NCBI GenBank assembly: GCA_004154925.1
Contig: QJNS01000284.1
Span: forward strand, 30,231 to 94,230
Direction: 5' to 3'
Source: Monosporascus cannonballus
Taxonomy: Eukaryota; Ascomycota; Sordariomycetes; Xylariales
DNA: 64,000 nt
The notes beneath the pieces are model-generated. The model had not been told where the DNA came from, made no database searches, and was given only the letters and a program-made list of their open reading frames with translations. The stretch's first letter is position 1; each line of letters starts with the position of its first letter. This document shows positions 3,001 through 62,460 of the stretch, one piece after another. The position numbers were made by a program, and so were the translations under genes.

Positions 3001-3972
3001 AAGCTCGACGGCCGGATCTAGTTTTTTTTCCCTTACCGCGTTTTCCCTTTGTCGGCATAACTAAGTCCCCGGCTAGTTTTAAGGATTCCTTTGTTTTTTC
3101 CCTTGCTGGTTCTAGGAATTCCTTTGTATTAAAATTTTATATAAATATAGTAATAGTCGGATATTCCGGATAACCGCCGAAATCCTTAGTATTAATACCG
3201 AATATACCGCGGTACCTCAGAATCCAATTTTTGTATAAAACTATTTACTTAATAATTAATTACGTATAATTACGAATTTTCTTTTCGTTTACTATTATGA
3301 AAATAACGTTTATATAATATATACTATAGGATATATCGCGGTTTTATATTTTTTTTTAATTAAAATCATAAGATTATTATACCTTTAATATTATTTATAT
3401 TATGTAAATTATTATAAATTATAAATTCCCGAAAATGATTAACGGTACGAATTATATGGTTTTTTAAAAATATACGCCGGTTAAATCTGTAATATAAAGA
3501 ATGTTTATTTTGCGGTTTTAAAGATTTATTATTTAATAATCCTTATTATTCGTATTAATAATTTTATTATTATATTTTAATATAAAAAAAACGAATAATA
3601 TTATATATTATTTAATAAATTTTTTAAGGTTTAATAAAAATAAAATTTAAATGTTGTTAAAATATATAAATATATTTTTTTTAACTTTTTATAAGTTATG
3701 TATATGTAATCGAAATCCCGGAATATTTATTTATATATTATTCCGATATTATCGTAAGTAAAATATACGTTAATATATATATAACGGTAAATAACTTACG
3801 TTTTTTGGTATATAATAATAAAATTTATTTTATAAAAACTTTACGGTATTAATATTTTATTAAATAATCGTTTGGCTTAAAGAAAACTTATTTTGTAAAT
3901 TGGGGCAAAGTTTAAAAAACAGTATATATACCAAAAAATAAAATACGGAAAATAACGCCGTAATTGATATAA
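1..3972. other. AT-rich RIP-degraded block, no recognisable gene
   Basis: The stretch is extremely AT-rich, with C found mainly in CpG and almost no CpA, which is the RIP pattern. Short readable runs exist: a plus-strand frame around 1620-1860, a stop-free plus frame at 1911-2111, and a lysine/arginine-rich minus frame around 2950-3130. None shows a domain I can name. It is probably repeat relic. It is the left flank of element A and ends in the TTTGT target site (3973-3977). Confidence 0.6.
3801..3938. repeat. 14-bp perfect inverted repeat pair
   Basis: TTTTTTGGTATATA at 3801-3814 is the exact reverse complement of 3925-3938. In DNA this AT-rich it may be chance, but the GG/CC core makes it slightly better than background. 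Confidence 0.35.
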
Positions 3973-8800: not shown

Positions 8801-9720
8801 ATTTTAATACGATAATAAACATTTTTAAAATTAATTTTCGAAAATATATTAATTAACCTTAGGCGATTTATCACTTTTAAAATTAAAGGTAAAAAATATC
8901 GGTTTTTTATCGTTATCCGATTTAACCCCTTATAATCGACATATAATCGGAAATTGCCGTTTTTTTAAACATAAATAATATTAATGCCTTTACGTCCGTT
9001 TTGGAATAACGTATCCGGCCTACCTTTAGGTTTTTTAAAATATATTTTTTAAATACCTTTTTAGGCTTTCAAAATAAGGTAAATTAGGCCGAATAAAGGC
9101 GTTTTCCCTAGGATTAAATTTATTATATATTTTGCCCTTAATCGTTAAAATATTTTTTGGCTATTTTTTCGGAATATACTCGCCGGAAATTCTTTAAGTA
9201 TATAAGAAGGTTAATTATTTTTTATTCTTATTATTCCCCAAATTCCGGGATATCTAATTTTTCGGCTAAATTTATTGAATTAACAATATAAATTTGTTTA
9301 CCGGAAAATATTAGGTTTATAATTTTCTGTTTATCGACCTTTTATAATAATCCGTATAATTATTAATATATAATTATATTTAACAAAATCCTTAATTTAT
9401 GTATTCCGAATCTAGATAATAAAAAATCGGGCGTTTTCCGATCGTAACATATTACAAAATAAATTTGCTTAAACTTTCGTTCGATTTTATTATTATTTAT
9501 TATGCTAATAAGAATTTCGTAAGTTTTATAATATTTAATATACGCGCCGTTAATGCCGATAAAACTTAAAATATTTACGGAAATTAATTAGAGGTTAAAT
9601 TTTCTCGTTAACTTTCTGCTTATAATATTTACTTATGCTCCGGTATCCATATCCATTTATACCGCCATATCCCCCGTATTTCTTTTGATAAATGCCTTTT
9701 TTTTAAAAAGCGGCTTTATT
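5880..9720 (-). pseudogene. Element A pol (PR-RT-RH-IN-chromodomain), broken
   Basis: Minus-strand relic of a Ty3/Gypsy polyprotein that would copy the element's RNA and integrate the DNA. The protease active site DTGA is intact at 9636-9647. The RT catalytic box reads YLNN at 8635-8646, where YLDD is expected, with both Asp codons changed to Asn by G-to-A mutation. The integrase core is unusually well preserved at about 6735-6895: it reads SLDFITGFP and then YDVILVIVDRFTKL without a stop. A chromodomain follows at about 5889-5965 (YLIKWENWPAEYNT, then a stop where Trp is expected). Other domains are inferred from order. Many in-frame TAA/TAG codons make it non-functional. Confidence 0.85.
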
Positions 9721-17429: not shown

Positions 17430-17837
17430 CTGCTAGCTGACAACAGCTACGGAGGTCTAGGTCTATGGCGTTACTAGGATATACAGCTAAAAAGACGGCT
17501 TCAGGCTAGGGCAGGGTTCCTGACGCAGTCCATACATTATCCATTAGCAGCTTCAGCACCTCAAGGGCTGCTGAAGTTGAAGTGGGGGAAAATCAACATG
17601 TTGATTGAACATGATTCGTCCAAGCCCGCCAAGAAAATCAGCAATTTTCAGCAGAAAAAAAGTGGAAATGCTGATATTGATGGACCCGAACGGTTTGCTG
17701 AAGATGATGTTGATTCCCCACAAATACGCGTTGTTGAAGTGTCCCGAACACGCCCTTAATTTACAGGACCGTCCTACTTTAATCATCCAACACAGTTCAA
17801 CCGCTAAACCTTCATAGTTCCTTTGCCACTCCATGAA

Positions 17838-17900
17838 GTGTTGTGGGTGTTGTGGGTGTTGTCGGTGTTGTGGGTGTTGTTGTGCTGTCCGTGTTGTCCA
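17838..17900. repeat. Imperfect 9-bp microsatellite (GTGTTGTGG)n
   Basis: About five to six units of GTGTTGTGG or single-base variants. Any overlapping open frame in this stretch is driven by the repeat (Thr/Pro, His/Gln or Asn/Thr runs) and not by selection that I can see. Confidence 0.8.
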
Positions 17901-18537
17901 TTGCCAATAAACCGCCAAAATAGGCTGGTTTGTGCTCTGCTTTCATGTCCTTTGTGGCCGAGAGGTGGTTGCGGCAGTGGAGGAGGGGGGCTAGAAAAAG
18001 ACCCAAGGATAATTTGAATAAGATCGAAAAGGTTATCCATCGTATAATGATGAGGTGATTGGCAATTTGGAGACTAAAGAGGTTGTCGCTTTCGTTTCTT
18101 GCAAGAATTGTTCAATCGGTAAGGGAAATACTTGGGGTGGGGTTGGGGCGTTTAAGTGCGTCAGATTAAGTCGCCAGGCAGATGATTCAAATAACCACGT
18201 ACCTTTAAAGGGACAGGCGGGTCGCATCGGCTGTCGGCCCGGTCCGATACCTGGACAGGCCTGCTAAGACTGCCCGTGCAGGACAAAGGGAAAAACGCGG
18301 TTTATTAATTGCCTCGTTAATTTTCAAGGCTCATGCTGGATAAAAAGAAAACCGAATTAAGCAGAGCTACACGTGCTGAACGACTTCCGCATAAAGCAAG
18401 CTTAATCAGAGCATACCTTCAGGACGAGCCATCCTATTAGGGCTATATTTTATTTTTCCTAGGCACCTTGACAGTTATCAGCTTCCTAGTACTGTAGATT
18501 CGAATTGGAATGTCGTCCCCCACAAGTTGGCTTAGCA

Positions 18538-19442: not shown

Positions 19443-19807
19443 TGTTATGACCTAACGGGCTGCGGCCTTAGAAAACGGTCGCAACGGTGACTAAGCCATG
19501 TGGGTCGAGTCACGTGATAGCTCGACCGGATCGATCGTAAAGCCTTTAAAGCCGGGCTCGACAAAATCGATCGTAAAGCCTTTAAAGCCGGACTTAACAA
19601 AATGAAAAAATTAAATATAAAAATATTTATTACTTCCATAATTTAAATAATATCAGCTTATAATATAATATCGTTACCCAAGGTACCCTTGGTATTACAA
19701 AACATAATACATTACTATATTTATTGCTCAGATTCCCACGATATTCCTATTAACATAAACCCGTCAACTTAAGATTTAATAATTGGTTAAATTACCTAGC
19801 CGTTATA
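19443..19807 (+). repeat. Element C 5' LTR
   Basis: The U3 holds two tandem copies of a unit of about 34 bp (ATCGATCGTAAAGCCTTTAA and following, about 19528-19598). The 3' part shares its GCTCAGATTCCCACGATA and GGTTTAATAATTGG-like block with LTRs D-I. Confidence 0.92.
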
Positions 19808-19949
19808 TATTACAAACTTTTATTCAGTAATACCGTTAAACTTTAAACAATACTTAAAACTGTTAAAATATCGACCAGCACTTAGGAAACCCCTATTTAA
19901 CAGCTTTAGGCTTAAATTCAAAAGCTGGAAAAAAAAGTTCGACAACTTA

Positions 19950-20554
19950 GGGCTACGCCACCTACCTAACCCTTTCTTGCCCGTATAAAGCCAAAAAAGC
20001 CAAAACCCTATAATAAAAAAAACAACCTTTAAACCTTTTTAATTTAGGCATAAATTTACTTTCGTTTCCTAAACCTTAATAACTTAACGGATATAATCCT
20101 AGCAGTAAAAATATACCTAACAAAAAATGTAATTAATTAATTTAAACCCATTATAAGAAATTTTCTAAAAATAAAAAAACAAATAAAAAAAACTTTTTTA
20201 ATAAAATCTTTTTAACTTATATCAATTTTAAAAATAAAATACGCGATAATTTCGGCAATCCGGATAAAAAACGATCCGCGGCCTAACAGTTTTTATAATT
20301 CCGATAAAAAAAACCTGTATCTAAATACGCCGTAACTTTTAAAAATTTTACGGCTAAGGCCGGATAAGGAAACGATAAAGCCGATGCCTTTATTAACATA
20401 TTTTATAAAAGATTAAAAGATAATATAAAAAATAAGATTATTCGGATTAAACGATTAGTTGTCCTACACCAGTATATCTCAAAAGCAATTAAGATTAACA
20501 ACCGACAGTTTGAAAAACGACAGGAGAAAAAAGAATAATACGCCCTACGCTCGG
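19950..20554 (+). pseudogene. Element C gag, N-terminal part
   Basis: The plus frame reads as a Gag capsid region in its second half. Runs such as RDNFGNPDKK (about 20240), KYAVTFKNFTAKAG, DAFINIFYKRLKDNI and IRIKRLVVLHQYISKAI precede a basic stretch, RQFEKRQEKK. Stops fall at CAA/CAG or TGG positions. The reading frame is cut at CTCGG (20550-20554) by element D and resumes at 27290 in frame. The equivalent uninterrupted sequence in element E (36220-36280) confirms the join. Confidence 0.8.
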
Positions 20555-20987
20555 TGTGACGGCTAGGTGGTTTAACCAACTATTAAACCTTAAGTCGACG
20601 GGTTTATGTTAGCAGGAGTATCGTGGGAATCTGAGCAATGGATACAATAATCGTATCACATCTCTTAATACCGGAAATACCTTATTACAAACGATTAATA
20701 TTGATAAATGTTACAAGCTAAAGCTAGCTAAACTATAGAATTAATAAGCATATATATCCTTCTCCTTTAGCTGGATTACCATCAGTAAGTTGGTGATTCG
20801 GCTTACTGGCTCACCACCAGTAAGTTGGTAATCCGGCTCACTGGCTTACCACCAGTAAGTTGGTGATCCGGCTTACTGGCTTACCACCAATAAGTTGGTA
20901 ATTTATTACGTAACCTAATTTATATGGTTTTCTTGGCCTTTTCCGTTACGACCATTTCTGGAGGCCGTGGCTTATCAGGTCGTAATA
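20555..20987 (-). repeat. Element D 3' LTR
   Basis: 433 bp, 27 bp longer than its partner because of different numbers of the internal 35-bp repeat. The polypurine tract follows at 20988. Confidence 0.92.
20774..20905. repeat. 35-bp tandem repeat in LTR D
   Basis: About 3.6 units containing ACCACCAGTAAGTTGGTGAT and then CCGGCTTACTGGCTT. The unit is an imperfect inverted repeat (ACCAGTAAG / CTTACTGG). The same unit occurs in LTRs 26879-27284, 55609-55996 and 62023-62339 in different copy numbers. Confidence 0.85.
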
Positions 20988-21012
20988 CGATCTCCTTTCT
21001 CCCAAAATCTTG
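20988..21012 (-). promoter_or_regulatory. Element D polypurine tract
   Basis: The minus strand reads TTGGGAGAAAGGAGATCG abutting the LTR start. The GGAGATCG or RGAAATCG ending is shared by F and G. Confidence 0.7.
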
Positions 21013-21073
21013 CCCTTAAGATTTCTTTTCTCCTGGTAAGTTTTTTCCATATACCTTTAACATATCTTCCGGT

Positions 21074-21565
21074 ATGTCCAAATGTCGTTTTCGCAAATCC
21101 GAACAGCGATTTGCTTTGGTTAATTTAATTGAACTTGAAGGTTTTGATACGATACCTTATTCTTTTTGTTTTATTTGGCAGTTTAATTACCAAATAATAG
21201 ATGGGGTTTTTTGTTATAAAGAATATATCCGTCAAGGTCGTTCGTATAACAGGATAAAAGTCTTTATTTTTATAATCAATCGCTATATTACAAAATCGAA
21301 AAGATTAAAAAAAGAAAAATTAACGGCCGAAAAATTTTTATTTAAAGCTTTTACGCATTTTTTTCGTATATGTCGTTAGCGTTAATATTATCAGTCTTAC
21401 GGTACGAAATTTGTTAATCGTACCCTTTAATCTTTGGATGATTTTAACGATTTTACGTAATTAAAATCAAAATCCGTAATTAAGGTTTAGGCCTTAGGAA
21501 AGGTAAACGTTATTAATTGAAATACGGTAAACCAAGGATTTCCTTTTATAAATCTTATAAATTAG
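21074..21565 (+). pseudogene. Antisense Cys-rich accessory ORF of element D
   Basis: Plus-strand frame on a minus-strand element, from ATG 21074 to TAG 21565, 164 codons with no frameshift. It begins MSKCRFRKSEQRF and is open to codon 101. In-frame TAG/TAA/TGA codons after that match CAG, CAA or TGG changed by RIP. A central block, QIIDGVFCYKEYIRQGRSY, aligns with the RCxxC region in the copies of C, E, F and G; here some Cys codons have become Tyr. A basic helix, KSKRLKKEKL, follows, then TLxSLDDFNDF and a conserved ending, FINLIN. The stop lies 5 bp beyond the pol stop on the other strand (21555-21557). Similar short RC-x-EC-type hypothetical proteins exist in fungi as far as I recall; function unknown. 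Confidence 0.75.
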
Positions 21566-24500
21566 GATATTATTATTTCGGGTAATTCCGCCGTTATTAA
21601 TAAAAAATTTTTAATAAGTATTAAATGCTAATAAGATTTTTGGCAAGTTTTTAGGTATTTTCGGAACCTGGGTATTTTTTCTATTTGATTAGGTACTAGG
21701 TAAGTCCGTTTTATTTTTACATATTAAATATTTTTTATATTTCGTATACTTATTTATTTTTTATTTTTACGTCGTTTTATGCCGTATATATTTTAATTGT
21801 ATCTGTTATTATTTTAAATAAAAAGATATGAAGAATTAAATAAAATTTGACTTTTAATAAAATTTTTAATTAATAATTATTTCCTAAATTAATATATTTA
21901 AAATCGAGTTTTTTGCTGGGTCATTTTATTTAAATATTTTTTGTAACAAAAAAAAATTCTTTTTTTAAAAGTTAATTTTTTAAACTTTTTTAATTATAAT
22001 ATTTATTTATTTAATTTCGTACGAATTTTATTTTTAATTTTATTTCGTAATATAGCTATCATAATTATTTTAAAGTAAAAATCATTTTAATATTAATTAG
22101 ACCGTTATTATGCGTTTTTTTATAAATTTTTAACATAAAACCAAAATTTATATTTATAAATATTATTTTAATATTTTCGTAATAATTAATATTATAAATT
22201 AATTAAGTAATCGGTGATTTTTTAACTTAATTATTTTGGTTATAATTAATATAATATCGTAAAAAAACCTTTAAGGTTTAATTTATTTATTTTGTTTATT
22301 TATTCGTTTAAGGTTTAAATGCGTTAGATAATTTATAATTTAGGCCGATTTATGTTATAAGGTTTTGTTAAAATTTAGATATAAATATTGATTTTCTGTT
22401 TAATAAAATTTTTATTAATAATATATATATGCTGAAAATACATTTAAAGAAAATATATATTAATTATTCGGCGGTTGTATTTTTATAATATAGTAAAAAA
22501 TAAGAAAATTTCGTAAATCGGTTAATAATTACAAAGATATTGTTGTAATATATTCTTATAATTGGATTTTTTAATATAAAAAGTTTAATCATAAAGTTGA
22601 ATATAATTAAATACCATAATTATTTTACGATTAATAATGGTTATAATTCTCCGTATAACTTATATTGTTAAGTTTTTACTTTGGTATAAATATTATATTG
22701 CCATATAATTCTTTATACCGTTAATTTTATTTTAGGAATAAAATATATAAGTTAAAGTCGTTTTAAGGTTTTATAGATCTTTAAATATCTATATAGCTAA
22801 TATTCGTATATTTTTCGTATTAGATTTTTTTGGTATTTTTTTGGTACTTTTATTTTGTCCGTTTTTTAGTTTTTTGAGAAATTATTATTATATTGCTAGA
22901 TTTTCTGATATATATCGTAAGGTAATACTCGAATCATCGTAATTTGTCGTAAGGATAAATATCCTTTTATAATGGTATCGAAAATTGTATAATTAACTTT
23001 AACCAATTTTTTTTAAAAAATCTGGTCGCCTGTTTAAAGTATTTATTTTATTATTCTTTAATCCTTTTTTATAGATAATAACGAAATCAAAATTCGCTAA
23101 TTTTTTTGCGTATTTTAATTATCGTTTTATAAATTCTTTGGTCGTGGTAAATCGGGTAAGATTTTGATGATCTGTGTAAACTTTAACCTGGTACAAGTTT
23201 CCCTTTAAAAAGTGCCTATATTCCCAAAATATATTAATAATGGCCATAAATTCCTTATTTAAAATACCGTAATTAAATTTAGTTTTTTTTAATTTATACG
23301 AAAAGAATATAATAAGGTGCAATTTACCTTAATTATTTCGTTATCCGATCACTGCGCTTAACGCGTAATCTAAAGTATCGGTTTTTAATTTAACGGGACG
23401 ATTTAAATCGTACATAATTAATACTAATTCGTTAATAATCGTATTTTTAATATCCTGAAATACTTTTTCCGTATTTGGCGTTTATTTAAATTCCTTTTTT
23501 TTCGAAAGATTTATTAAGGGTATAATTATTTTATTCAAATTTTAAATAAATTTCTTATAATAATTAATAAATCCTAGGAATATCTATATGTTTTTAATTA
23601 TTATTAACGTTTGTTATTTTATAATTATAACGATTTTTTAAGGATTTTTCTAATATATCTTGGAATAATAATATATCCCAAATATTCCATTTTTTATATA
23701 TGGAATTAATTTTTTTCCGCGTTAATAAGTAGTTTTGCGTTTTATAAAATTTGAAGAACTTTATGAACGTATTTTACGTATATTTTTTTTATTTCCGAAA
23801 AAATGAAAATGTCGTTAAGATAACAAATAACGAAAATATCGAAATATTTTCGTAATATAAAATTTATTATCTGTTAAAAAGTTATTAGTACGTTTATAAG
23901 TCCTATTAATGTATCTAAATACTTAAATAATTTATATTTCGTTTTGAAAATTATTTTTTATTTATATCGTTTTTTAATTCTGATAAGGTTATATTTATTT
24001 TTAAAATCGAATATTATAAATTATTTGGCTCCGTAAAATCGGTTTTTTATTTCTATAATTAGGGGTAATAATATTTGATTTTTAATAATAATATTATTTA
24101 GTTATTGGTAATTAACCATAAATCGCAATTTTTTATTTTTTTTTAGGTACGAAAAATATCGGGTATTTTATTAGTAATTTCGAAGGTCGAATGTATTTTT
24201 TTTGTAATCGATTTTCCTGGTATTTTTTAAAAGTACGTAATTTATTTCTGTTAAAGTTATAAATAAGGTAAAACTTTATCGAAGATCTTTTTTAAAAAAT
24301 TATTTTATAATTTTATTTATTATGTTCTGGTAATTTCGTATTAAGTTCCTTCCTAAAAAGCTGCTTATATCTATAATATTATGGTAATATATTAATTAAA
24401 CTTTCTAATTCCTTAAGTTGTTTTTTTTTGTTGTTTTAGATTATTATTTAATTGCTTTAACTTCGCTTTAATGGTAATAATAATACGTCGTATTTTTTTC

Positions 24501-24960
24501 TGATATCCGTTTTTTTTTATATTTTGTTTTTTTGGGTGATAAGGTATTTGTTATGTTTTTATATTTGCATATATCGCCATTATCGATCGAATATTAAGAT
24601 TTTAATTTTTTTTATTTGTTAATAGGATATAAGGCGAACCTTATTTGGCCAGTTCCGCTATTAATTAAGATTTTGTACTGGCGTATTTATAATAATCCTA
24701 AGATTATATCGTAATTCTCGAATAAAACGATATCGAAATTAACTATTTGGTATTGTCCTTGGATAAAAATCTTAAGGTAATTAATTTCGCATATAATTTT
24801 TCCGTTATCGTAAGCGAATTTTTGACTTTCGGCATTCGTCGTTATGTAAAGTTCCAACTTATATTTCCATAATAATTTAAGCTTATTAAGCATATTCGGT
24901 ATAACGTAATTTCCGTTTAAAGCTCCGTAGTCCACTATTGCGGTATATTAATGTATTCTA
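21555..24960 (-). pseudogene. Element D pol, broken
   Basis: Minus-strand polyprotein relic in the usual order. The protease region at 24687-24935 is open for 82 codons (MDYGALNGNYVIPNML, with the active-site Asp/Ser lost). The RT catalytic box reads VICYLNDIFIFS near 23805-23850, one Asp of the DD pair replaced by Asn. RNase H lies at 23119-23322, open for 67 codons (NYGILNKEFMAIINIFWEY, then TDHQNL). Integrase follows at about 22.0-23.0 kb, by position. The chromodomain is at about 21590-21740 (YLIK, stop, KKYPGSENT). The frame ends with TAA at 21555-21557. Confidence 0.85.
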
Positions 24961-25899
24961 ATTTATATATCCAAAATAATAAGGTTATTAAATTTTTTAT
25001 CGTCGTGTTTAAAGCCTTTCTTGGGAGTTCTCTTTGATTTTTTTGAGTTTTGTTATTTTGCGGTTCTTTTATAAGTAATCTTTTTCTTTTAACATTTATT
25101 TGAGTTTATCGAGCTTTGCTTATGTTTTTTCGTTTAACGCGTTAAGTTACTATATTTGTCATTGTTGTCGGCGTATTGTTCCTTTAAGCCGTATTAATTG
25201 TTCCTATTTCTTTTGCAATTTTTTTTCTTATCGAATAAACTGTTTTTTTATGTTTGCGATTATATTCTATTATGTATTATTTCGGCTATTATTTTAAAGA
25301 TTTTTTATAAATTAGCATATTTTTTTGATAACTTTTTTTTTGGAAATCCGTAATAACGTTTTAATAATATTTTTTTACTATACGTTAGATTAATTCCTTT
25401 TCCGTTCGGTAATTGTATTATTCATAATAACAAAAGGGATTTTTTTATAGATATTATTTTTTTTCGGGCCAGTTCTTTATTTCGGCCAATTATTGGACAT
25501 TTTCTGGGATTATAATTCAAAATTATCGATATTATTGTTTATTATTTTTGTTATACCCGGTTCGGTTTAAAAAATCAAATTTTTTATAATATATGTAAGT
25601 AATTCGTACGTAAATATATTATTTTTATTTTTCGTAATCGGTATACTTTTGTCGTTAATAATATATAACGTATATTTTACCGTATTAATCGGGTATTCCG
25701 GAATAACCCTTTTCTATTTAATTTTAATATTTACGTAATTATTTTTATAACATTTTTATTATATTTACAATACTTATTAAATTAGCTTTTTAATTTTTTA
25801 TATTTTTCGTCGAATTTTTTATTGTAATAATCCCGGTTAAACCTTTTGTTATAAGCCTGATATATATTTGGTTTAAATTATGTTAATAATTTTATTATC

Positions 25900-26860
25900 A
25901 TTTTTTTAATTATTCTTAAATTATTTTTCTGGTATAAGGGTTTAGTTATTTTATCGTGGCTTTTTGGGTTTCTTATATTTATAAGCTTTGTATCCTATTT
26001 TGCCATAATTAAACCATTTAATTTGGCTTTAATTTTGTTTATGAGTAACGCCGAATTCCATAAGTCCTGGCGCCGTTCCGTAAGAAGTAGGGGGTGCGTT
26101 TTATTTTTTTTCCTGATTGGATTTGTTATATCCCGAATATAAGGCATATTATTCTTTTTTTTTATTATTTTTCAAATTGTTAATTGTTAATCTTGATTAC
26201 TTTTGCAATATACCGGCCCAGGGCAACTGGTTATTCGATTCGAATAATCTTATTTTTTACATTATTTTTTAGCCCTTTATAAAATATGTCGATAAGGGTA
26301 TTGGCTTTATTATCTCCTTATCCCGCCTTAACTGCGAAATTTTTAAAAGTTACGGTGTACTTGGATACGGGTTTTTTCTGTTAGAATTATAAGAATTATT
26401 AAGCCGCGGATTATTTTTTATCTGGATTACCGAAATTATCGCGTATTTTGTTTTCGAAATTGGTATAAATTAAAAAGATTTTATTAGTAAAGCTTTCCTT
26501 ATTTACTTTTTTTATTTCCAAAAAGTTTTTTATAATAAATTTAAATTAATTAGCTGTATTTTTTATTAAGTATGTTTTTATTATTAGGACTATATCCGCT
26601 GGGTCGTTAAAGTTTAAAATATAAAAATAAATTCGTGTTTAAGTTAAAAAGGTTTAAGGGTTGTTTTTTTATTGTAAGGTTCTGGTTTTTTTGGCTTTAT
26701 ACGAGCGAGAAAGGGTTGGGCAAGTGGCGTAGCCCTAAGTTATCGGACTTTTTTTTTCCAACTTCCGAATTTAAACCTAAAGCTGTTAAATAGGGGTTTC
26801 CTAAATGCTGGTTAATATTTTAACAGTATTAAATATTGCTTAAAGTCTAACGGTATTACT
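25900..26860 (-). pseudogene. Element D gag, broken
   Basis: The zinc knuckle relic reads KWFNYGKIGYKAYKYKKPK at about 25969-26022. It matches the intact knuckle of element C (27395-27450) except that Cys and His codons have become Tyr or Trp. Capsid sequence upstream towards the 5' LTR is recognisable only by comparison with C and E. Confidence 0.75.
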
Positions 26861-26878
26861 GAATAAGAATTTGTAACG

Positions 26879-27284
26879 TATAACGGCTAGGTAATTTAAC
26901 TAACTATTAAACTTTAAGTCGACGGGTTTATGTTAGTAGGAGTATCGTGGGAATCTGAGTAATGGATATTGTAATCGTATTATATCTTTTAATATCGGAA
27001 ATGCCTTATTGTAAACGATTAATATTAATAAGTATTACAAGTTAAAATTAGTTAGATTATGGAATTAATAAGCGTATATATATATTTTTTTTTGCTGGAT
27101 TACCACCAGTAAATTGGTGATTCGGTTTATTGGCTTACCATTAGTGAGTTGGTGATCCGGCTTACTGGCTTACTGGCTTATTACCAGTGAGTTGGTGATC
27201 TATCACGTGACCTGATCTACATGGTTTTCTTGGCCTTCTCCGTTGCGACCGTTCCTGGAGGCCGTGGCTTGTCAGGTCGTAACA
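26879..27284 (-). repeat. Element D 5' LTR
   Basis: 406 bp, from TATAACGGC (RIPed TGTGACGGC) to GGTCGTAACA. Its right third (27180-27284) has escaped RIP. The following leader, read on the minus strand (about 26820-26878), is shared with C, E, F and G. Confidence 0.92.
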
Positions 27285-27289
27285 TTCGG

Positions 27290-27560
27290 GATACAAGTCC
27301 AACCAGGGGAAGAAACGAGACGCACCCCCTACCTCTCACAGAACAACGCCAGGACCTATAGAACTCGGCGTTACCCACAGACAAAATTGGAGCCAGATTA
27401 AATGCTTTAACTGTGGCAAAATGGGACATAAGGCCTACAGGTACAAAAAACCCAAGAAACCACGGCAAAATAACTGGACCCCTATACCGGAAAAATAATT
27501 CAAAAATAATTAAAAAAACGATAACAACGTTATTAACATAATCCAAGTCAAATACGTATT
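27290..27560 (+). pseudogene. Element C gag, C-terminal part with intact zinc knuckle
   Basis: It continues the C gag frame after element D and is stop-free from 27290 to about 27500. It reads GYKSNQGKKRDAPP, then the CCHC-type knuckle KCFNCGKMGHKAYRYKKP at about 27395-27450; only the last Cys is changed (TAC). This short strip keeps normal base composition, unlike the rest of C. The knuckle would bind the element's RNA during particle assembly. Confidence 0.85.
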
Positions 27561-28429
27561 AGGCCTTAAGTAAAAAATCCAATAAGGATTATTATAATAA
27601 GAAATTCGACGAAAAATGCGAAAAACCAAAAAACTGGCTTAATAAATATTGCAAATATAATAAAAAGCGTTATAAGGATAATTATACGAATATTAAAATT
27701 AAATAAAAAAAGTTTGTCCCGGAACCCCCGATCGATACGGCAAAATGTACGCCATATATTATTAATAACGAAAATACCCCGATTGCGAAAAATAAAAACA
27801 ATATATTTACGTACGAATTACCCGTATATATTACGAAAAATTTAATTTTCTAAACCGTACCGGGTATAATAAGAATAATAAACAATAATATTAATAATTT
27901 TAAACCATAACCCCAGAAAATATCTAATAATTGGCCGAAATAAAAATCTGGCTTAAAAAGAATTAATACCCGGAAAAAAAACACTTTTTATCATTATGGA
28001 TAATATAACCATTATACGGAAAAAAGTTAATTTAACGTACGGTAAAAAATACTATTAAAAGGTTATTACGGATTTCCATTTTCAATTAATATTTATTATA
28101 AATCCCCCTAAAAAAAGCTATTAAAAAGAAATACGTTAATTTACGAAAAGGCTTTAAAATAATAATTAAAACGACGTATAATGAGATATAGTCGTAAACA
28201 TAAAAAATAATTTTCTTATTAAGGAGAAAAATTATAATAAAACCAGAAATAATTAATACGGTTCGAAAAAATAATACGTCGATAATAATAACAAATATAA
28301 CAACTTAACGCGCTATATACAGAAACATAAATAAAACTTAACAGATTCGAATAGGAATTAAAAAAAATTACTTATAAAAAAGCCGCAAAATAACAAAACC
28401 GAAAGACATTAAAAAGAACTCCCAAAAAA

Positions 28430-31400
28430 AGCTTTAAATACGACGATAGAAAACGTTAACAACCTTATCACTTTGGAAATACGAATCGGAACGCACTGGT
28501 ACACCGCAATAATAAACTACGGAACTCTAGGCGGAAATTACATTGTACCGGATATGGTCAATAAGTTCAAACTGCCATAGAAATACAAATTAAAACCTTA
28601 TATAATAATAAATGCCAAAGGTTAAAAATTCGCCTACGATAACGGAAAAATTACATACGAAATTAATCACTTCAAAATTCTTATTAAAAAATAACATTAA
28701 ATAATTAATTTCGATATCGTTTTATTCGGAAATTACGATATAATTTTAAGATTACCATAAATACACCAATACGGAATTTTAATTAATGGCGGAATTGGCC
28801 AGGTAAAATTCGCTTTATTTCCTGTTAATAAATAAAAAAAAATTAAAATTTTAATACTTAATCAATAATGGCGACAAATATAGGCATAAAAATACGACAA
28901 ATACCTTACCACTTAAAAAAACAAAATATAAAAAAAAACGGGTATTAAGAAAAATATAATATATCGTTATTATTATTAAAACGAAATTAAAATAATTGAA
29001 TAACGATTTAAAATAATAGGAACAGCAACCCAAGGAATAAGAAAATTTAATTAATATACTATTATAATATTACAAATATAAGCAGTTTTTTAAAAAGGAA
29101 CTTAATACAAAATTACCAAAATATAATAAATAAGATTATAAAATAAATTTTAAAAAAGGATCCTTAACAAAATTTTACCTTATTTATAATCTTAATAAAA
29201 ACGAATTACGTACTTTCAGAAAATACCTGGAAAATCGGTTACAAAAAAAATAAATTCGACCTTCAAAATTACTAACAAAATACTCGATATTTTTCGTATC
29301 TAAAAAAAATAGGAAATTACGATTTATAATTAACTATCGACAATTAAATAATATCATTATTAAAAATCTAATATTATTACCCCTAATTATGGAAATAAAA
29401 AACCGATTTTACGGATTTAAATGGTTTATAATATTCGATTTTAAAAATAAATATAACTTTATTAAGATTAAAAAAAGATACGAATAAAAAATAACCTTTA
29501 GAACGAAATATAAATTATTCGAATATTTGGTTATATTAATAGAACTTACGAACGTACTAGTAACCTTTTAGAGGATAATAAACTATATATTACGAAAATA
29601 TCTCGATATTTTCGTCGTTTGCTATGTCGACAACATTCTTATTTTTTCGAAAACAGAAAGAATATACATAGGATACGTTCATAAGGTTTTTCAAGTTTTA
29701 AAGAACGTAAGGTTATTTATTAACGCAAAGAAAAATTAATTCTATATATTGAAAATGGAATATTTAAAACATATTATTACCCCAGAACATATTAAGATAA
29801 ACCTTAAGAAAATTGCTGTAATTATAAGATAATAAACGTTAATGACAATTAAAAAAGTATAAGTATTCTTTAGATTTGCTAATTATTATAAGAAATTTAT
29901 TCGAAATTTTAGCAAAATAACTATACCCTTAACAAATCTTACAAAAAAAAAGTTCAAATAAACGCCAAATACAAAAAAAACATTTCAAAATATCAAGAAT
30001 ACGATTACTAACAAACCAATATTAATTATATACGATCCAAACCGCTCCATTAAACTAAAAACCGATATTTCGGATTACGTATTAAACGTAATAATCAGAT
30101 AACAAAATAATTAAGGCAAATTATACCTTATTATATTCTTTTCGTACAAGTTAAAAAGAACCGAACTTAATTACGGCATTCCAAATAAAAAATTTATAAC
30201 TATTATTATGGCATTTCGGAAATTTAAATACTTCCTAAAAAATTTTGTACCAAGTCAAAATTTATACGGATTATCAAAATCTTACCCGATTTACTACGAC
30301 CAAAAAACTTATAAAAGGATAATTAAAATATGCAGAAAAATTGGCAAATTTTAACTTCGTTATTATCCATCAAAAAAATTAAAAAACGGCAAAGCGAATT
30401 CTTTAAACAGGTAATCAAACCTTAAAGAAAAATTAATCAAAATTAGTTATATAATTTTTGATACTACCATAAAAAATATTTACGCCTACGACAAATTATA
30501 ACAATTCGGGTAAAACCTTACGATATATATCAGAAAATTTAACAACATAACGATAATCTCTCAAAAAACTAAAAAACAGATAAAATATAAATTTCAAAAA
30601 AAATATCAAAAAGATTTAATACGAAAAATATACCAACAGCAATTATATAAATATCTAAAGATTTATAAAATCTTAAAAAAACTTTAACGTATATATTCCT
30701 TTTTTAAAATAAAATTAATAATATAAAAATTATACAATAATACGATATTTGCGCTAAAGTAAAGACTCGACGATACAGACCATACGGAAAATTACCGCCA
30801 TTACCAATTACAAAATAACCATAATATTTAGCCATATTTAACTTTATTACCAAACATTTTATATTAAAAGATTTAGCTATAAAAATATATTACGATAATA
30901 TTTTCGTAATAATTAACCAATTTACGAAATTTTCCTATTTCTTATTATATTATAAGAACATAAACGCCAAATAACTAATATACAGTTTCTTTAAACATAT
31001 TTTCAACATATACAGATTACTAATGGAAATTATATTAAATAAAAGATTAATATTTGCATTTAAGTTTTAACAAAGCTTTATAACATAAATCGGCCTAAAT
31101 CACAAATTATCCAATACGTTTAAACCTTAAATAAATAAATAAATAAAACAAATAAATTAAACTTTAAAAATTTACATATAATATTATATTAATTACGAAT
31201 AAAATAATTAGGTTAAGAAATTACTAATTATACAGTCAACTTATAACATTAATTATTACGAAAATATTAAAATAATATTTACGAACGTAAATTTTGATTT
31301 TATTCCAAAGATTTCCAAAAAAAAAAACATAGGATAACAATCCAATTAACATCAAAATAATTATAATAATTATATTAAGAAATAAAAATAAAACTGGAAT

Positions 31401-31898
31401 TCGTACGAAATCAAATAAATAAATATTACAATCAAAAAAGGTTAAAAATATTAATTTTCGATAAAGGGAAAATAACTTTCCTTGCCATAAAAAACATTTA
31501 AATAAAATGACCTAATAAAAAACTTAATTTCAAATATATCGGTCTATACAAAATTACTAAAAAAATCTTAAAAAACAATTACTAATTAAAATTTCCACCA
31601 AAAGTTAAACTTTATCTAATTTTTTATATTTTTTTGTTTGAATTAACAACAAATATAATCAAAATACATACGGCACAAAACGATATGGAAATAAAAAAAT
31701 AAACAAATATACAAGGCGGAGAAAATTTCCGACATACGAAAATAAAACGGACTTACCCAATACCTAATTAAATAAAAAAAATATCCAGACTCCGAGAATA
31801 TCTGGGAACTCGTCAAAAACCTTATTAACGTCCAACACCTATTAAAAAACTTTTACCAACAACGCCGAAATCGGCAAGGTCAAAAGTTCCCTAATTAA
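28430..31898 (+). pseudogene. Element C pol with C-terminal chromodomain, broken
   Basis: Protease at about 28490-28760 has the active site changed to NYGTLG. RT lies at about 29.1-29.9 kb with the catalytic box FVVCYVDNILIFS near 29600-29645 (second Asp to Asn). RNase H starts near 30058 (KTDISDYVLNVII). Integrase runs from about 30.6 to 31.4 kb, with YDICAKVKTRRYRPYGKLPP before the core and the first catalytic Asp replaced (FNFITK). A GPY/F-like segment is near 31500-31640. A chromodomain closes the protein (GLTQYLIK, stop, KKYPDSENIWELVKNLINV), which would target integration to histone-marked chromatin. Pol ends at TAA 31896-31898. Confidence 0.87.
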
Positions 31899-32319
31899 TA
31901 AACAACCAATTTGTGGACTCCAGGTTGGACCAGTCGAAAAGAAAAGCGGCCTCCGCCGTGGTAACCTTGGCGGCCTCCAGTTCGACCTGTTTTTCTTAAC
32001 GTTCCAATTCATCCAACTCCTTTAAGAACCAAAGCCCACGAAATAATATGCATATTATACGATCGGCCTATAATTTCTTTTATTTTCGAAAACGATAAAC
32101 CTTAGCCTACGCCTGCTTTGTTTTTCTCTTAGCTTTTTTAAGTTCTGTTTTAACTTTAAAATAATTAAAAACGAGCTTTTTAAATTAAAAAATAAAAAAG
32201 CTATTAACGTTATAAAGGCCTGAGTTTTACGTTACGCATTTTTTACACCTAGAAAAATCTAATGAAAAAACACGACAAAATAATAACCCGCAATAAATAT
32301 AATAAGAACATACGGGCAT
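31891..32319 (-). pseudogene. Antisense Cys-rich accessory ORF of element C
   Basis: Minus-strand frame from ATG 32317-32319 (MPVCSYYIYCGLLFCRVF) to TAG 31891-31893, 143 codons, same frame throughout. The signature SRCKKCV lies near 32236-32256. A basic helix, KLKQNLKKAKRKTKQ, follows, then an acidic/coiled-coil tail, WFLKELDELER and EKQVELEAAKVTTAEAAF, and the ending NWLFIN. RIP-type stops interrupt the middle; the C-terminal 45 codons (below about 32040) are nearly free of them. Its stop overlaps the end of pol on the other strand within CCTAATTAA. It has the same position and orientation as in D, E, F and G. Zinc binding is an inference from Cys spacing. Confidence 0.75.
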
Positions 32320-32471
32320 ATTTACGGTTCGAAAAATAATTAATTTAAGCAAATTATTTTGCTTTTACGTTTTTTTTATTAATTAGTTTTTTAATACGAC
32401 CTAACATAATAACGGAAAAAAAACTTATAAAAAAAGTTTTTCTGAACGAAAATTATAAAGAAAAAAAATCA

Positions 32472-32836
32472 TATTATAACCTAACGGGCTGCGGCCTCAG
32501 AAAACGGTCGCAACGGTAATTAAGCCATAGGGGTCGAATTACATAATGGCTCGACAGGATCGATCGCAAAACCTTTAAACCCGGGCTCGACAAAATCGAT
32601 CGTAAAACCTTTAAAGCCGGACTCGACAAAATAAAAAAATTAAGTATAAAAATATTCATTATTTTCATAATTTAAATAATATCAGCTTATAATATAATAT
32701 CGTTACCCAAGGCACCCTTGGTATTACGAAACGTAACACGTTACTATATTTATTGCTCAGATTCCCACGATACTTCTGCCAACATAAACCCGTCGACTTA
32801 AGGTTTAATAATTGGTTAAACCGCCTAGCCGTCACA
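32472..32836 (+). repeat. Element C 3' LTR
   Basis: 365 bp, same length as the 5' copy, and followed by ATTAC (32837-32841). A short A/G-rich polypurine tract precedes it at about 32455-32471. Confidence 0.92.
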
Positions 32837-32841
32837 ATTAC

Positions 32842-34984: not shown

Positions 34985-35510
34985 TGTTACGACCCAACAA
35001 GCTCCGGTCTCAAGAAACGGTCAAACAGGGATCATACGAGCCACTCCATAGGTTACGTAACGGTGATCACTGCCAAGCCAGTGATCAAAAGTGATCAAAG
35101 GGGATCATAAGCGATTATGATCATTATTAGCTGCGTAATTATAAGTAATTAAACTAAGAAAAAAAAGGATATATACGCTTATTATTTTCGTAATTTAAAT
35201 AATTTTAGCTTATAATATAATATCGTTACCTAAAGTACCTTTAAAATTAGGAAACGTAATACGTTATTATATTACTTAAATTCTTACGATATTCCTATTA
35301 ATATAAACTTATTAACTTAAAATTTAATAATTAGTTAAATCGTTGTCACGGCGCTGTACGTCTCTTGGGTTTCTGGAAGATATTCTGTTGTTGTACGAGG
35401 AAGAAAGAAGAGAGCTATCTAGTAAGCGTGTAGCGCTTACATATATATAGCGAAACGGCGGCTTAAATAAGCCGCTTTGCTAGTGCCGTAACAATCGTTA
35501 AGTCGTTATA
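34985..35510 (+). repeat. Element E 5' LTR (interrupted)
   Basis: 371 bp of LTR plus a 150-bp insertion and its duplicated ATCGT. The U3 has a cluster of GTGATCA/GATCAT repeats forming overlapping palindromes at about 35052-35130 (GTGATCAC, CCAGTGATCAAAAGTGATCA). Confidence 0.9.
35344..35493 (+). mobile_element. 150-bp LTR-like insertion (solo LTR or mini-element)
   Basis: A GC-normal, non-RIPed sequence starts TGTCACGGC and ends GCCGTAACA, with 5-bp duplications ATCGT on both sides (35339-35343 and 35494-35498). The TG...CA ends, 5-bp duplication and internal TATATATAG fit a solo LTR of a short-LTR element, perhaps Ty1/Copia, or a small non-autonomous LTR element. It carries hairpins (GCGGCTTAAATAAGCCGC). 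Because it is unmutated inside a RIPed LTR, it is young or single-copy. Confidence 0.8.
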
Positions 35511-40300: not shown

Positions 40301-40762
40301 AATAAATATTATAACCAAAAAAATTAAAAAAACTAATTTTTAAAAAAGGGAAAATACTTTTTCGCCATAAAAATATTTAAATAAAAAGACTTAATAAAAA
40401 ACTTAGTTTCAAATATATCGGTCTATATAAAATTATTAAGAAAATCTTAAAAAATAATTATTAATTAACGTTTTCACCAAAAGTTAAAATCTATTTAATT
40501 TTTTACGTTTCCTTATTCGAATTAATAACAAATATAATTGAAATATATATAATATAAAACGATATAAAAATGGAAAACGAATAAATATATAAGGTAAAAA
40601 ATTTTTTTAATATGTAAAAACAAAACGGATTTACCTAATACCTAATTAAGTAAAAAAAAATATCCAGATTCCGAAAACACCTAAAAACTTATTAAAAATC
40701 TTATTAACGCTTAACACTTACTAAAGAAATTTTACCAATAACGATAGACGCGTCCTAGTTAA
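37400..40762 (+). pseudogene. Element E pol with chromodomain, broken
   Basis: Protease relic at about 37490-37770 (NYGALGGNYIIPNI). RT catalytic box VVCYFNDIFIF near 38585-38630, first Asp to Asn. RNase H from about 39040 (KTDISDYTLNVII) to TDHQNL-equivalent sequence near 39245. Integrase at about 39.7-40.4 kb, with ISRF/VNRFTKICYF-like core text. Chromodomain at about 40640-40740. The frame closes at TAA 40760-40762 after RPS. Confidence 0.82.
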
Positions 40763-41318
40763 TAACCAACCAGTCGGTAGCCGAGATATCGGGCCAATTA
40801 GCCGCGATATATATTAACGTAATAGCCGTAACGGCGGCTTTCAATTATTCTTATTCTTAACGTTTTTGTTTTTTAGCTTATTTAACGATTAAAATTTACG
40901 TTATATTATAGTAATACTTCTCGAACCAATTAATGCTTTTTGCTTATATAAACAAATAAAATAAGAAAAAACTTAATTTCTTTTCCTAATATTTGCGTTA
41001 AGTTTTAAAATAAAGCCGTTAAAACTTTAATAATTGTTTTTCGGTAAACGTTTTTTTACGTTTTAAATGTTAATACTTATAACGAATATTTTATAAGAAA
41101 AAAATAGGTATACCGGTACTATTATAAATCGATTTCGATTAATATATTCCTTATATTTTAAAACATTTTTTTATTATTTTACATCTTATGTTTTTCGAAA
41201 AATAATAAAAATAAAGTATAAGTTCGTAACCAAATTTGTTAAAGGCTTTTATAAGATTAATACGACGACCGGTAAAAAAACAAAAAACGCGACAAATTTT
41301 AAAAATACAAAACGACAT
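40755..41318 (-). pseudogene. Antisense Cys-rich accessory ORF of element E
   Basis: Minus-strand frame from ATG 41316-41318 (MSFCIFKICRVFCFF) to TAG at 40755-40757, 188 codons, one frame. The first 55 codons are open. The block RCKIIKKCFKI, stop, GIY corresponds to the RCxxC region of the other copies, and is followed by NSTGIPIFFL, matching CDGTGVFPFSL in F. A basic region and a Gln/Lys-rich helix precede an ending DWLVIN-like. The stop overlaps pol's stop in CCTAGTTAA. It is longer than the copies in C and D, mainly in the middle. Confidence 0.72.
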
Positions 41319-41404: not shown

Positions 41405-41773
41405 TATTACGACCCAACAAACTCCGGTCTTAAAAACGGTCAAATAAGAATTATACGGGCCACTCCATAGATCACGTAATAATAATCACTGCCAAACCAA
41501 TAATCAAAAGTGATTAAAGGGGATTATAAGCAATTATGATCATTATTAGCCGTATAATCATAAGTGATTAAGCCAAAAAAAGGAAAATATATACGCTTAT
41601 TATTTCCATAATTTAAATAGTTTCAGCTTATAATACAACATCGTTATCCAAGGTACGCTTGGTATTACGAGACGTGACACGTTACTGTATTGCTCAGATT
41701 TCCACGATACTCTTGCCAACATAAACCCGTCGACTTAAGGTTTAATAGTTGGTTAAACCGCCAAGCCGTCACA
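41405..41773 (+). repeat. Element E 3' LTR
   Basis: 369 bp, uninterrupted partner of 34985-35510, followed by CCGTA. The preceding purine-rich AAAAAGAAAAAATCG is its polypurine tract. Confidence 0.92.
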
Positions 41774-52800: not shown

Positions 52801-53293
52801 TACGAAATTAAATAAGCAAATATTATAACCAGAAAAGATTAAAGGGATTAATTTTCGAAAAAGAAAAATGGTTTTTGTCGTTATTAAAAATATTTAAATA
52901 AAACAACCTAATAAAAATTCGATTTCAAATATATTGGTCGATATAAAATTATTAAAAAGAATCTTAAAATATAATTATTAATTGAAACTTTTACCAAAAG
53001 TTAAATTCCATCCAATTTTCTATGTTTTTTTATTCGAGTTAATAGCGAATATAATTAAGGTGCATACGGTATAAAATAACGTAAAGGTGAAAAAAGAACA
53101 AGTATACGAAGTAAAGAAAATTTTCGGTATGCGAAAATAAGATAGATTCACTTAATACCTAATTAAATAAAAAAAACATCCAGATTCCGAGAATACCTGA
53201 AAATCTGCTAAAAACTTTACTAGCGCTTAACGCCTGTTAAAAAACTTTTATTAATAACGATGGAATTATCAAAAATAATTACGTCCTAATTAA
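49850..53293 (+). pseudogene. Element F pol with chromodomain, broken
   Basis: Protease relic at about 49925-50200 (NYGALDRNYIVPNMVNKF). RT box VVYCFNDIFIF near 51035-51070. RNase H from about 51475. Integrase at about 52.1-52.8 kb. GPY/F-like segment near 52.9-53.08 kb. Chromodomain at about 53150-53240 (SENT, stop). The frame ends KQLRPN-like with TAA at 53291-53293. The order and spacing match C. Confidence 0.82.
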
Positions 53294-53810
53294 TGTTTTT
53301 AATGGATTAATCGGTATTACCGATACCAGATTAGTTTACAGGACCAATAAGAGGAATTAATACGGCCATGAAAGCTTCGGCGATAGCCTGTTTCTGGCGT
53401 TTTTGCTTTTCCAGTTTTTCGAATGATTATAATTCCCGTTATATTATTTTTATTTTTTTCCGAAAACCGATTAAACGCGTAATAACCTTATTTATTTTTT
53501 GTTAATAACGTTTTTATAATTTTAAAAAACCTTCCTTTGCAAAAACCTTTTTTCGCTTTAGGCGTTAGTTTTCGGTACGAATGTTTTTTAAGGAAAAAGG
53601 AAAAACGCCGGTTCCATCGCAAAGATATTTACGTTTACCGCAAGTTTTACATTTTAAAACGTTTTCTATTATTTCATATTTGTAACTTTTGAAAAAACAT
53701 AAAAAGTACTGTATAACTTTAAAATTAAGATCGTCAAAAATAAAAAGCAAATTTTGCTAACGAATAATAAAGGAAAGCTAACGACAACTTTTAATAATAC
53801 GATCTGATAT
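53286..53810 (-). pseudogene. Antisense Cys-rich accessory ORF of element F (best-preserved motif)
   Basis: Minus-strand frame ending at TAG 53286-53288. The probable start is ATA at 53808-53810, a RIPed ATG, giving 175 codons. Codons over 53565-53750 are open. They contain VLKCKTCGKRKYLCDGTGVF, an intact Cys-x2-Cys-x6-Cys cluster resembling half of a Zn2Cys6-type binding motif. A basic segment, RLKRKKVFAKEGF, then a helix, KINKVITRLIGFRKKIKII, and a charged coiled-coil-like stretch, SFEKLEKQKRQKQAIAEAF, follow. It ends SIKNIN. The stop overlaps pol's stop in CCTAATTAA. Zinc and nucleic-acid binding are inferences from sequence character only. Confidence 0.78.
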
Positions 53811-53882
53811 CGTAATAAATTAATAATATTTACTAAGAAAAATGAAATTTTAAAGGTAAGATTTTCGGGACAGGGGAGATCG

Positions 53883-54259
53883 TATTACGATTTTATAAAT
53901 TTCGGTCTTAGGAAATAATTAACGAAAATAATACGGACCACCTTTCGAGTTACGTAATAGGTTTTAGCGAAAATCCGCTAAGTACGACTAATTAGCATTA
54001 AATAACCGTTTAACAAAAGTTTATTAAGTACGGTTAAGTAAAGATAAATAATAATATTAAAAATTAATATATATATGCTTATTATTTCCATAATTTAAAT
54101 AATTTAAGCTTATAATAACAATTCGTTACCTAAGGCACCTTTGGTATTACGAGATGTGATATATTACTGTATTTATTGCTCAGATTCCTACGATACTTTT
54201 GCCAACATAAACCCGTACGACTAAGGTTTAATAGTTGATTAAACCCCCTAGCCGTCACA
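53883..54259 (+). repeat. Element F 3' LTR
   Basis: 377 bp. It is preceded by the polypurine tract ending GGGACAGGGGAGATCG (53867-53882) and followed by GTAAG. Confidence 0.92.
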
Positions 54260-61000: not shown

Positions 61001-61454
61001 GGGAATTAATTTTCAAAAAAAGAAAAATGGTTTTTCTTGTTACAAAAGAATTTAAATAAAGTAACCCAGCAAAAAGCTCGATTTCAAATATATCGGTCCA
61101 TATAAAATTACTAAGAAAATTTCAAAAAATAATTAGTAATTAGAACCGTTACCAAAAGTTAAATTTTATTTAATTGTTTACGCTATTTTAGTTAAATTAA
61201 TAACGGATATAATTAAAATACATACGGTATAAGACAATATAAAAATAAAAAACAAATACGTATACGAAATAAAAAAATTTCTCGATATGCAAAAATAAAA
61301 CGGACTTATCTAGTACCTAATCAAGTAAAAAAAGTATCTAGACTCTGGAAATACCTAGAAACTAGCTAAAAATCTTATTAACGCCTAACGCCTATTAAAA
61401 AGTTTTCACCAGTAATAACGGAATTACTTAAAATAATAACATTCTAATCTATAA
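58010..61454 (+). pseudogene. Element G pol with chromodomain, broken
   Basis: Protease relic NYGALGGNYIISNI at about 58065-58110. RT box VIYYFDNILLF near 59150-59185 (second Asp to Asn). RNase H from about 59595 (KADISNYTFNVII). Integrase at about 60.25-60.96 kb (IFVIVDRFTKFF near 60440-60480). Chromodomain at about 61310-61400. Ends with TAA at 61452-61454. It is more damaged than C. Confidence 0.8.
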
Positions 61455-61935
61455 AATTCAAAAAAGAAGCCCTTAATTTATCGTATTCCAATTAATAATA
61501 TCCATTTTGCTTAAGGCCTGAATCTTAATTACAGACTTTAACCCCAATTACATAAGGTCGTTAAAATCGTCCAAAAATTAAAGGGTACGATTAACAAATT
61601 TCGTACTTTAGGATTAATAATGCTGGCATTAACGACATATATAAAAAAAACGCGCAAAAACTTTAAATAGAAATTTTTCGGCCTTTAATTTTTCTTTTTT
61701 TTAATTTTTTCGACTTTGCAATATAACGATTAATTATAAAAATAAGGATTCCCATTTTATGGTACGAATAACTTCGGCAAATATATTTCTTATAACGGGA
61801 AACCTCGTCTATTATTTGGTAATTAAGCTGTCAGGCAAAGCAAAAAAACAAAATATTACGTTAAAAACCTGTAAGTTTAATTAAATTAGCCAGGGGAAAT
61901 CGTTATTCAAATTTGCAAAAACAACGCTTAAATAT
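61444..61935 (-). pseudogene. Antisense Cys-rich accessory ORF of element G
   Basis: Minus-strand frame from ATA 61933-61935 (RIPed ATG) to TAG 61444-61446, 164 codons, exactly the length of the copy in D. It reads IFKRCFCKFE, then RFPLANLIKLTGF, QLNYQIIDEVSRYKKYI and RYIAKSKKLKKRK, matching D residue for residue apart from RIP changes. The stop lies next to pol's TAA on the other strand. The equal length of D and G argues that the frame was under constraint before RIP. Confidence 0.72.
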
Positions 61936-62022: not shown

Positions 62023-62339
62023 TATCATAATCTACTAGGCCACGGTTTTCAGAAAAAGTTTATCATAACCCAACCACAAATACGCAGTAGGGCAAGTCAT
62101 ATAATAGATTACCAACTTACTGGTAATAAGCCAGCAAGCCGGATCAAAATATATACGCTTATTATTTTAATAATTTAGATAACTTTAGCTTGCAATAAAA
62201 TATCGTTATTTAAGGCACCCTTGGAATTACGAAACGTAATACGTTATTATATCCATTACTCAGATTCCCACGATATTCCTACTAATATAAACCCGTACGA
62301 CTAAGGTTTAATAGTTGGTTAAACCGCCTAGCCGTCACA
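62023..62339 (+). repeat. Element G 3' LTR
   Basis: 317 bp, preceded by polypurine AAAAAAGGGAAATCG and followed by GTAAC. It has one 35-bp repeat unit only, 71 bp shorter than the 5' LTR. Confidence 0.92.
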
Positions 62340-62460
62340 GTAACCGCCAAGCTCAATCCACTTATTTAGGTTTTTTCTGAGATAGATATCTATTCATTTG
62401 AAACTTTCGTGGATTGTTATAATAAGTGAACCTCGTAGCGGTGTAAGTCCCGTTATTAGT
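62340..62460 (-). pseudogene. MULE transposase, N-terminal part
   Basis: Continues the MULE frame to the right of element G: minus strand LTPLRGSLIITIHESFK, stop, IDIYLRKNLNKWIELGGYATN over the GTAAC junction. This resembles the short conserved start of Hop-type transposases. The initiator codon is not clear; readable sequence runs to about 62460. The total coding length of the three pieces is about 2.26 kb, normal for this family. Confidence 0.65.

Follow-up and report, generated by a model that had tools for sequence, protein, structure and literature searches.

Antisense genes beside the 3' long terminal repeat of Monosporascus chromoviruses: decayed copies of a possible Gal4-like regulator

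What is the reading frame that runs against gag-pol, between the end of pol and the 3' long terminal repeat (LTR), in five chromoviruses from 64,000 nucleotides of the Monosporascus cannonballus genome, and did it once encode a protein? This stretch, hereafter called the window (contig QJNS01000284.1, positions 30,231 to 94,230), belongs to a genome of 88.8 Mb in 618 contigs, has a G+C content of 14-42% in 1-kb windows, and contains reverse-transcriptase remnants that mostly bear stop codons, as expected of RIP, the repeat-induced point mutation of fungi. A preliminary description had reported related antisense frames in five elements named C, D, E, F, and G. We hold, with a probability of about 0.5, that the five elements carry decayed copies of a conserved antisense gene for a small nuclear regulator, with a Gal4-like zinc cluster predicted to bind DNA, a predicted dimer helix, and an acidic tail.

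The relatedness of the frames was evaluated with a hidden Markov model (HMM) built from 60 intact homologs of at least 160 amino acids, out of the 78 presented below and with the window sequences excluded. Run against the six-frame translation of the window at E ≤ 1, this model matches at the five reported places only; 20 first-order Markov shuffles of the window reached at most 0 bits, and the reversed window gave -1.4 bits. The broken genes, two of which are also delimited by a same-genome profile, are as follows.

21071..21628, plus strand: antisense gene of element D, broken (HMM match of 4.1e-17 over 21071-21547, then read on; end approximate)
21158..21247, plus strand: positions of the six-cysteine cluster of element D, from its translation compared with the cysteine spacing of the homologs
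31906..32379, minus strand: antisense gene of element C, broken (HMM match of 1.3e-14)
40737..41315, minus strand: antisense gene of element E, broken (same-genome profile, 86 bits; two weak HMM pieces, 40853-41050 with E 0.26 and 41019-41270 with E 0.021)
53274..53810, minus strand: antisense gene of element F, broken (same-genome profile, 222 bits; HMM match of 1e-15 over 53373-53774)
61470..61929, minus strand: antisense gene of element G, broken and frameshifted (two weak HMM pieces in two frames, 61470-61694 with E 0.056 and 61690-61929 with E 0.0058)

The frames had first been described as running from ATG to TAG without frameshift, which does not hold: counting the final one, stop codons number 7 in D, 7 in C, 14 in E, 10 in F, and 9 in G, and, in the stretch for which open reading frames (ORFs) were listed, the sole one of at least 90 amino acids among them is the start of D (101 amino acids, 21074-21379). 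The ends initially chosen are premature as well. All five sequences continue for about 20 codons past them, up to a doubled stop, and in related copies the premature stop is replaced by a sense codon. The gene of D consists of the earlier 21074-21565 frame plus about 20 conserved codons. The Asn-ended C-terminus proposed as a common feature thus reflects a premature stop, the last residue before it in G being moreover an Asp. The ATG taken as the start of C is internal, the profile match beginning about 20 codons further upstream. The length of exactly 164 codons shared by D and G is a coincidence produced by the ends that had been picked, the two sequences falling out of frame with each other beyond about residue 80-98: the match between the two is confined to residues 1-98, and the tail of D matches a different frame of G. 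Both the 164-codon identity and the Asn end were therefore rejected as real features. In the cluster of D, a single cysteine is left and tyrosine occupies five of the six positions. RIP has since broken nearly all copies of the antisense gene seen in the genome.

What the preliminary description had right is the place and orientation of the frames, which are directly observed at all five sites: profile matches, LTR pairs, and chromodomain homology concur in locating them opposite pol, between its chromodomain and the 3' LTR. A search of the window for repeat pairs found an LTR pair for each element, and chromodomain sequences taken from sister copies, used as tblastn queries, had a homologous stretch next to each antisense frame, on the strand opposite to it.

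20554..20985, minus strand: 3' LTR of element D (79.4% repeat pair; 5' LTR at 26878-27282)
32474..32841, plus strand: 3' LTR of element C (88.9% repeat pair; 5' LTR at 19443-19813)
41407..41760, plus strand: 3' LTR of element E (79.2% repeat pair; 5' LTR at 34987-35342)
53882..54243, plus strand: 3' LTR of element F (76.3% repeat pair; 5' LTR at 47521-47883)
62025..62344, plus strand: 3' LTR of element G, approximate limits (repeat pairs in pieces; 5' LTR at about 55611-55991)
21588..21929, minus strand: chromodomain end of pol in element D (tblastn, best 4.5e-37)
31502..31874, plus strand: chromodomain end of pol in element C (tblastn, two frames)
40381..40744, plus strand: chromodomain end of pol in element E (tblastn, two frames)
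52898..53251, plus strand: chromodomain end of pol in element F (tblastn)
61056..61412, plus strand: chromodomain end of pol in element G (tblastn)

In the window elements, the antisense frame starts 71-94 bp from the 3' LTR, inside the element, and its end abuts or enters the 3' end of pol. Four further copies with LTR pairs place the start at 68-96 bp, which brings the range to 68-96 bp in nine of nine elements. At 12 of 12 further loci, hand-picked across the match lists of the F and G queries described below, the antisense frame is followed directly downstream by integrase and chromodomain homology on the other strand. One of these loci (L054) is matched by the same-genome profile only, the profile of intact homologs missing it at E 1e-3.

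Element D (20554-27282) is nested on the opposite strand inside element C (19443-32841), whose LTRs flank both, and its insertion is accompanied by a 5-bp target duplication with one mismatch. A sixth LTR pair of the window (3977-4324/11195-11551, 71.5%) encloses a diverged reverse transcriptase (7990-9030, minus strand); no antisense gene was found there by either the intact-homolog or the same-genome profile. Elsewhere on the minus strand, stop-free frames of 110-154 amino acids, rich in Gln, Ser, and Arg, occupy a G+C-richer stretch (46714-47523), and a stop-free frame of 129 amino acids (17553-17942) coincides with a stretch of 42% G+C within AT-rich surroundings.

The genome was queried with the sequences of F, of G, and of a copy from elsewhere in the genome, L045, each of which gave at least 150 scored matches (from 1190, 1336, and 1463 candidates, respectively). 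The L045-type gene forms a third subfamily distinct from those of F and G (e.g. G000:C116:47294-47917). Among the matches listed for F and L045, the only stop-free one is that of L045 itself, and among those listed for G, ten stop-free partial matches within residues 1-101 occur, D's included. The antisense frame of L045 is intact: it has 0 stops, compared to 8-11 in each of the other five frames over the same span, and its overlap with the end of the opposite-strand chromodomain ORF amounts to about 145 bases. The carrier shows the protease, reverse transcriptase, RNase H, integrase order and the C-terminal chromodomain of a Ty3/gypsy chromovirus; in L045, a Pfam scan on either side of the integrase region recognizes RVP_2, RVT_1, RT_RNaseH, and Chromo (4.4e-19). 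On the 5' side of its protease, L045 also has a 255-amino-acid open frame rich in Cys and His (2847-3614, plus strand), for which no Pfam match was obtained at E ≤ 0.001.

Did these frames evolve as protein-coding sequences? Since RIP makes transitions only, transversions between copies reflect the divergence of the elements before RIP. In a main set of 22 F-type copies, with the pol-overlapping part left out, transversions at codon positions 1, 2, and 3 amount to 804, 900, and 3745 (15, 17, and 69%) over all pairs, which are non-independent; disjoint random pairings of the same copies give a median p of 4e-33. The bias is weaker over all 40 distinct copies (20072/12998/29828; 4 of 44 dropped as duplicates, and matches under 360 nt, that of G included, left out), probably owing to poor alignment across subfamilies. 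As a control, the counts by column phase in the flank between these 22 copies and the LTR are 2664/2974/3520, the phase being blurred there by gaps. This transversion bias, a proxy for the ratio of nonsynonymous to synonymous rates (dN/dS), reads as a sign of past purifying selection on a protein-coding frame. A neutral ratio in intact copies, or the lack of such an ORF at the same place in unmutated relatives, had been named beforehand as grounds for abandoning an element-encoded protein; neither was encountered, the ratio being gauged through the codon-position counts. With the intact homologs, the constant place, and the third-position excess, the proposal of an antisense protein encoded by the element is well supported.

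The homologs were reached by successive searches. Same-genome read-through copies retrieved 3 proteins and the best of these retrieved 8, and an alignment of five sequences retrieved 77 at E ≤ 0.01, the 7998 candidates sharing most words having been scored; the total is 78 proteins, fragments among them. Named hosts include Apiospora, Monosporascus, Corynascus, Neoarthrinium, Thermothelomyces, Thyridium, Metarhizium, Cordyceps, Fusarium, Trichoderma, Verticillium, and Canariomyces, many rows being without a name, and one protein (P0055) carries the source label 'Zn(2)-C6 fungal-type'. Examples are MYCTH_77342 of Thermothelomyces thermophilus and PG993_003996 of Apiospora rasikravindrae. The proteins are about 200 amino acids long and share the same architecture. 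Their N-terminus is basic (net positive in 48 of 48), followed by the pattern CX2CX6CX8-12CX2CX6-7C in 55 of the 78, with a spacer of 8 in 51; among those lacking the full pattern are proteins whose sequence begins beyond the cluster and others that miss part of it. A long helix is predicted after the cluster, and the tail is acidic, with a net negative charge in 58 of 58 and a [DEN]W motif in 49 of these 58.

Zn(II)2Cys6 proteins (PF00172) have the spacing CX2CX6CX5-12CX2CX6-8C, into which the pattern of the 55 homologs falls. PF00172 is also the most-matched Pfam family, with 26 of 64 members at E ≤ 1 compared to 8 for the next family, and P0071 passes its cut-off (22.0 versus 21), the others viewed individually falling below; the Pfam match of P0016 is in register. 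GAL4, PUT3, and LAC9 are the only Protein Data Bank (PDB) chains with matches spanning all six cysteines, these being weak and none significant; the top PDB row, at 0.0011, belongs to a coiled coil that is unrelated. For one of the two models used, all 8 rows of weak fold matches are Zn(II)2Cys6 factors. Two observations weigh the other way. In the Pfam matches of P0001, P0053, and P0071, the register is shifted for one half-cluster, and hhalign against 18 host domains scores 20.9, with a probability of 12%. That score is reached by none of 100 full shuffles (maximum 15.3), whereas 7 of 100 shuffles with the cysteines kept do reach it, meaning that the likeness to host domains is mostly a matter of spacing. 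The spacing and the weak fold matches for one model suggest a Gal4-like regulator; the family resembles a Zn(II)2Cys6 protein, may well work as one, and stands as a candidate member of that class. The nucleic-acid binding initially put forward thereby becomes a plausible and more precise proposal, that of a Gal4-like zinc cluster followed by a long helix.

If so, the elements likely specified a regulatory switch of their own. The antisense transcript would start in the 3' LTR, or in the adjoining 70-95 bp, and run inward; the protein would return to the nucleus via its basic end and pair through the long helix; the cluster would bind DNA of the element, with the LTR as the most plausible target, and the acidic Trp-containing tail would act on transcription, setting the transcription level of the element much like the antisense protein HBZ in human T-cell leukaemia virus type 1 (HTLV-1). 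In this context, TATATA occurs on the antisense strand in eight of nine LTRs, about 170-230 bases into the LTR, that of C being without it; the motif reads almost as a palindrome and may be part of the sense promoter. No excess of CGG/CCG was found in the LTRs. The 3' LTR of D contains a 35-bp tandem repeat of 3.8 copies (20771-20902), whose unit includes an inverted repeat and CCGG and might be a candidate binding array. Besides, the interval that separates the 3' LTR from the antisense start contains, in D (about 21035-21045) and in another copy, L047, a splice-donor-like GGTAAG surrounded by pyrimidine-rich sequence. The broadest form of the proposal is that ascomycete chromoviruses carry an antisense, self-encoded Gal4-type factor, with zinc cluster, coiled coil, and acidic activation tail, whose target is the LTRs of the elements themselves, this being an independent fungal counterpart of HBZ and a Zn(II)2Cys6 class inside a retroelement; we advance it only tentatively.

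Other explanations have to be weighed against a self-encoded regulator. The antisense protein could be real and yet serve as a nucleic-acid chaperone, or as a tether that would, with the chromodomain integrase, hold the pre-integration complex to chromatin. The basic N-terminus, the zinc-type cluster, and the long helix fit such roles equally, and both the mostly spacing-based likeness to transcription factors and the LTRs without CGG/CCG excess speak for them. However, a chaperone gives no reason for the antisense placement, and an acidic tail with Trp, here negatively charged in 58 of 58, is more usual in activators, which leaves this alternative rather unlikely. A captured host gene, picked up once and carried along as cargo with a host-directed function or none, draws on the frequency of Zn(II)2Cys6 genes in this genome (111 PF00172 matches). 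At least three diverged query families with at least 150 scored matches each, homologs in many genera, the constant place, and the selection signal make it very improbable.

The transcript itself might matter instead, by pairing with gag-pol RNA and feeding RNA silencing or blocking expression, the protein being secondary. The extension of the L045 frame into the 3' end of pol accords with this, and a review (PMC7264820) describes antisense RNA of LTR elements as capable of regulation. A function exerted by RNA alone would nevertheless need neither protein conservation over 78 homologs nor a third-position bias, and we regard it as improbable. Finally, the stop-ridden state of the window frames could suggest that they arose by chance or merely shadow a sense gene. 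The chance of this is negligible: nothing above 0 bits arises in shuffled windows, in L045, with its open antisense frame, the sense frames over the region are themselves closed by 8-11 stops, and intact homologs exist elsewhere. Both candidates were accordingly rejected.

An antisense gene at this place of an LTR retrotransposon is already known. Zhao et al. (2011, Virology 417:248) reportedly described brtn in Boty-like elements. In the accounts of PMC8365987, PMC7264820, and PMC4227169, brtn is an antisense gene of Boty, a chromodomain Ty3 element of Botrytis cinerea, reported from Sclerotinia too, and PMC5987419 mentions a BRTN-like transcript in Monilinia. As in our elements, brtn is placed there between the 3' LTR and a pol with a terminal chromodomain, again in an ascomycete. 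This likeness is one of position and orientation; none of the homologs found bears that name. GAL4, PUT3, PPR1, and HAP1, all of PF00172, are alike in the six-Cys spacing, the coil after the cluster, and the acidic end, whereas the present family differs from GAL4-type factors by its little likeness beyond the cysteines, its size of about 200 amino acids, and its antisense location within a retrotransposon.

HBZ is a bZIP protein from an unrelated host and element, in contrast to the zinc cluster and long helix of the present family, and bZIP is absent from the 25 Pfam families to which the 64 members gave the most matches. HBZ is likewise antisense beside the 3' LTR and is a nuclear regulator, its nuclear localisation and 3' LTR promoter being described in PMC11963269 and PMC7264820. 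The same papers report antisense ORFs between pol and the 3' LTR in the plant elements Grande (gene23), RIRE2, and Retand (TRP28), of which Retand belongs to a non-chromovirus lineage (PMC11963269); their function is given as unknown, some being nuclear or predicted to bind DNA, and a zinc cluster is unmentioned in these descriptions. More generally, antisense genes of LTR retrotransposons are known, their products being without settled function in the account of PMC7264820. Within the literature surveyed, three things appear new: the reading of the product as a zinc cluster joined to a long helix, the distribution of the gene among ascomycetes, and the sign of selection.

Because the family has intact members, a zinc-type motif that can be defined, and a helix predicted to form dimers, its function can now be tested. 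If the regulator proposed here is real, fungal retroelements and animal retroviruses would each have come to encode one next to the 3' LTR, antisense to their other genes. The present data also suggest that dozens of ascomycete 'hypothetical proteins' may be retrotransposon genes.
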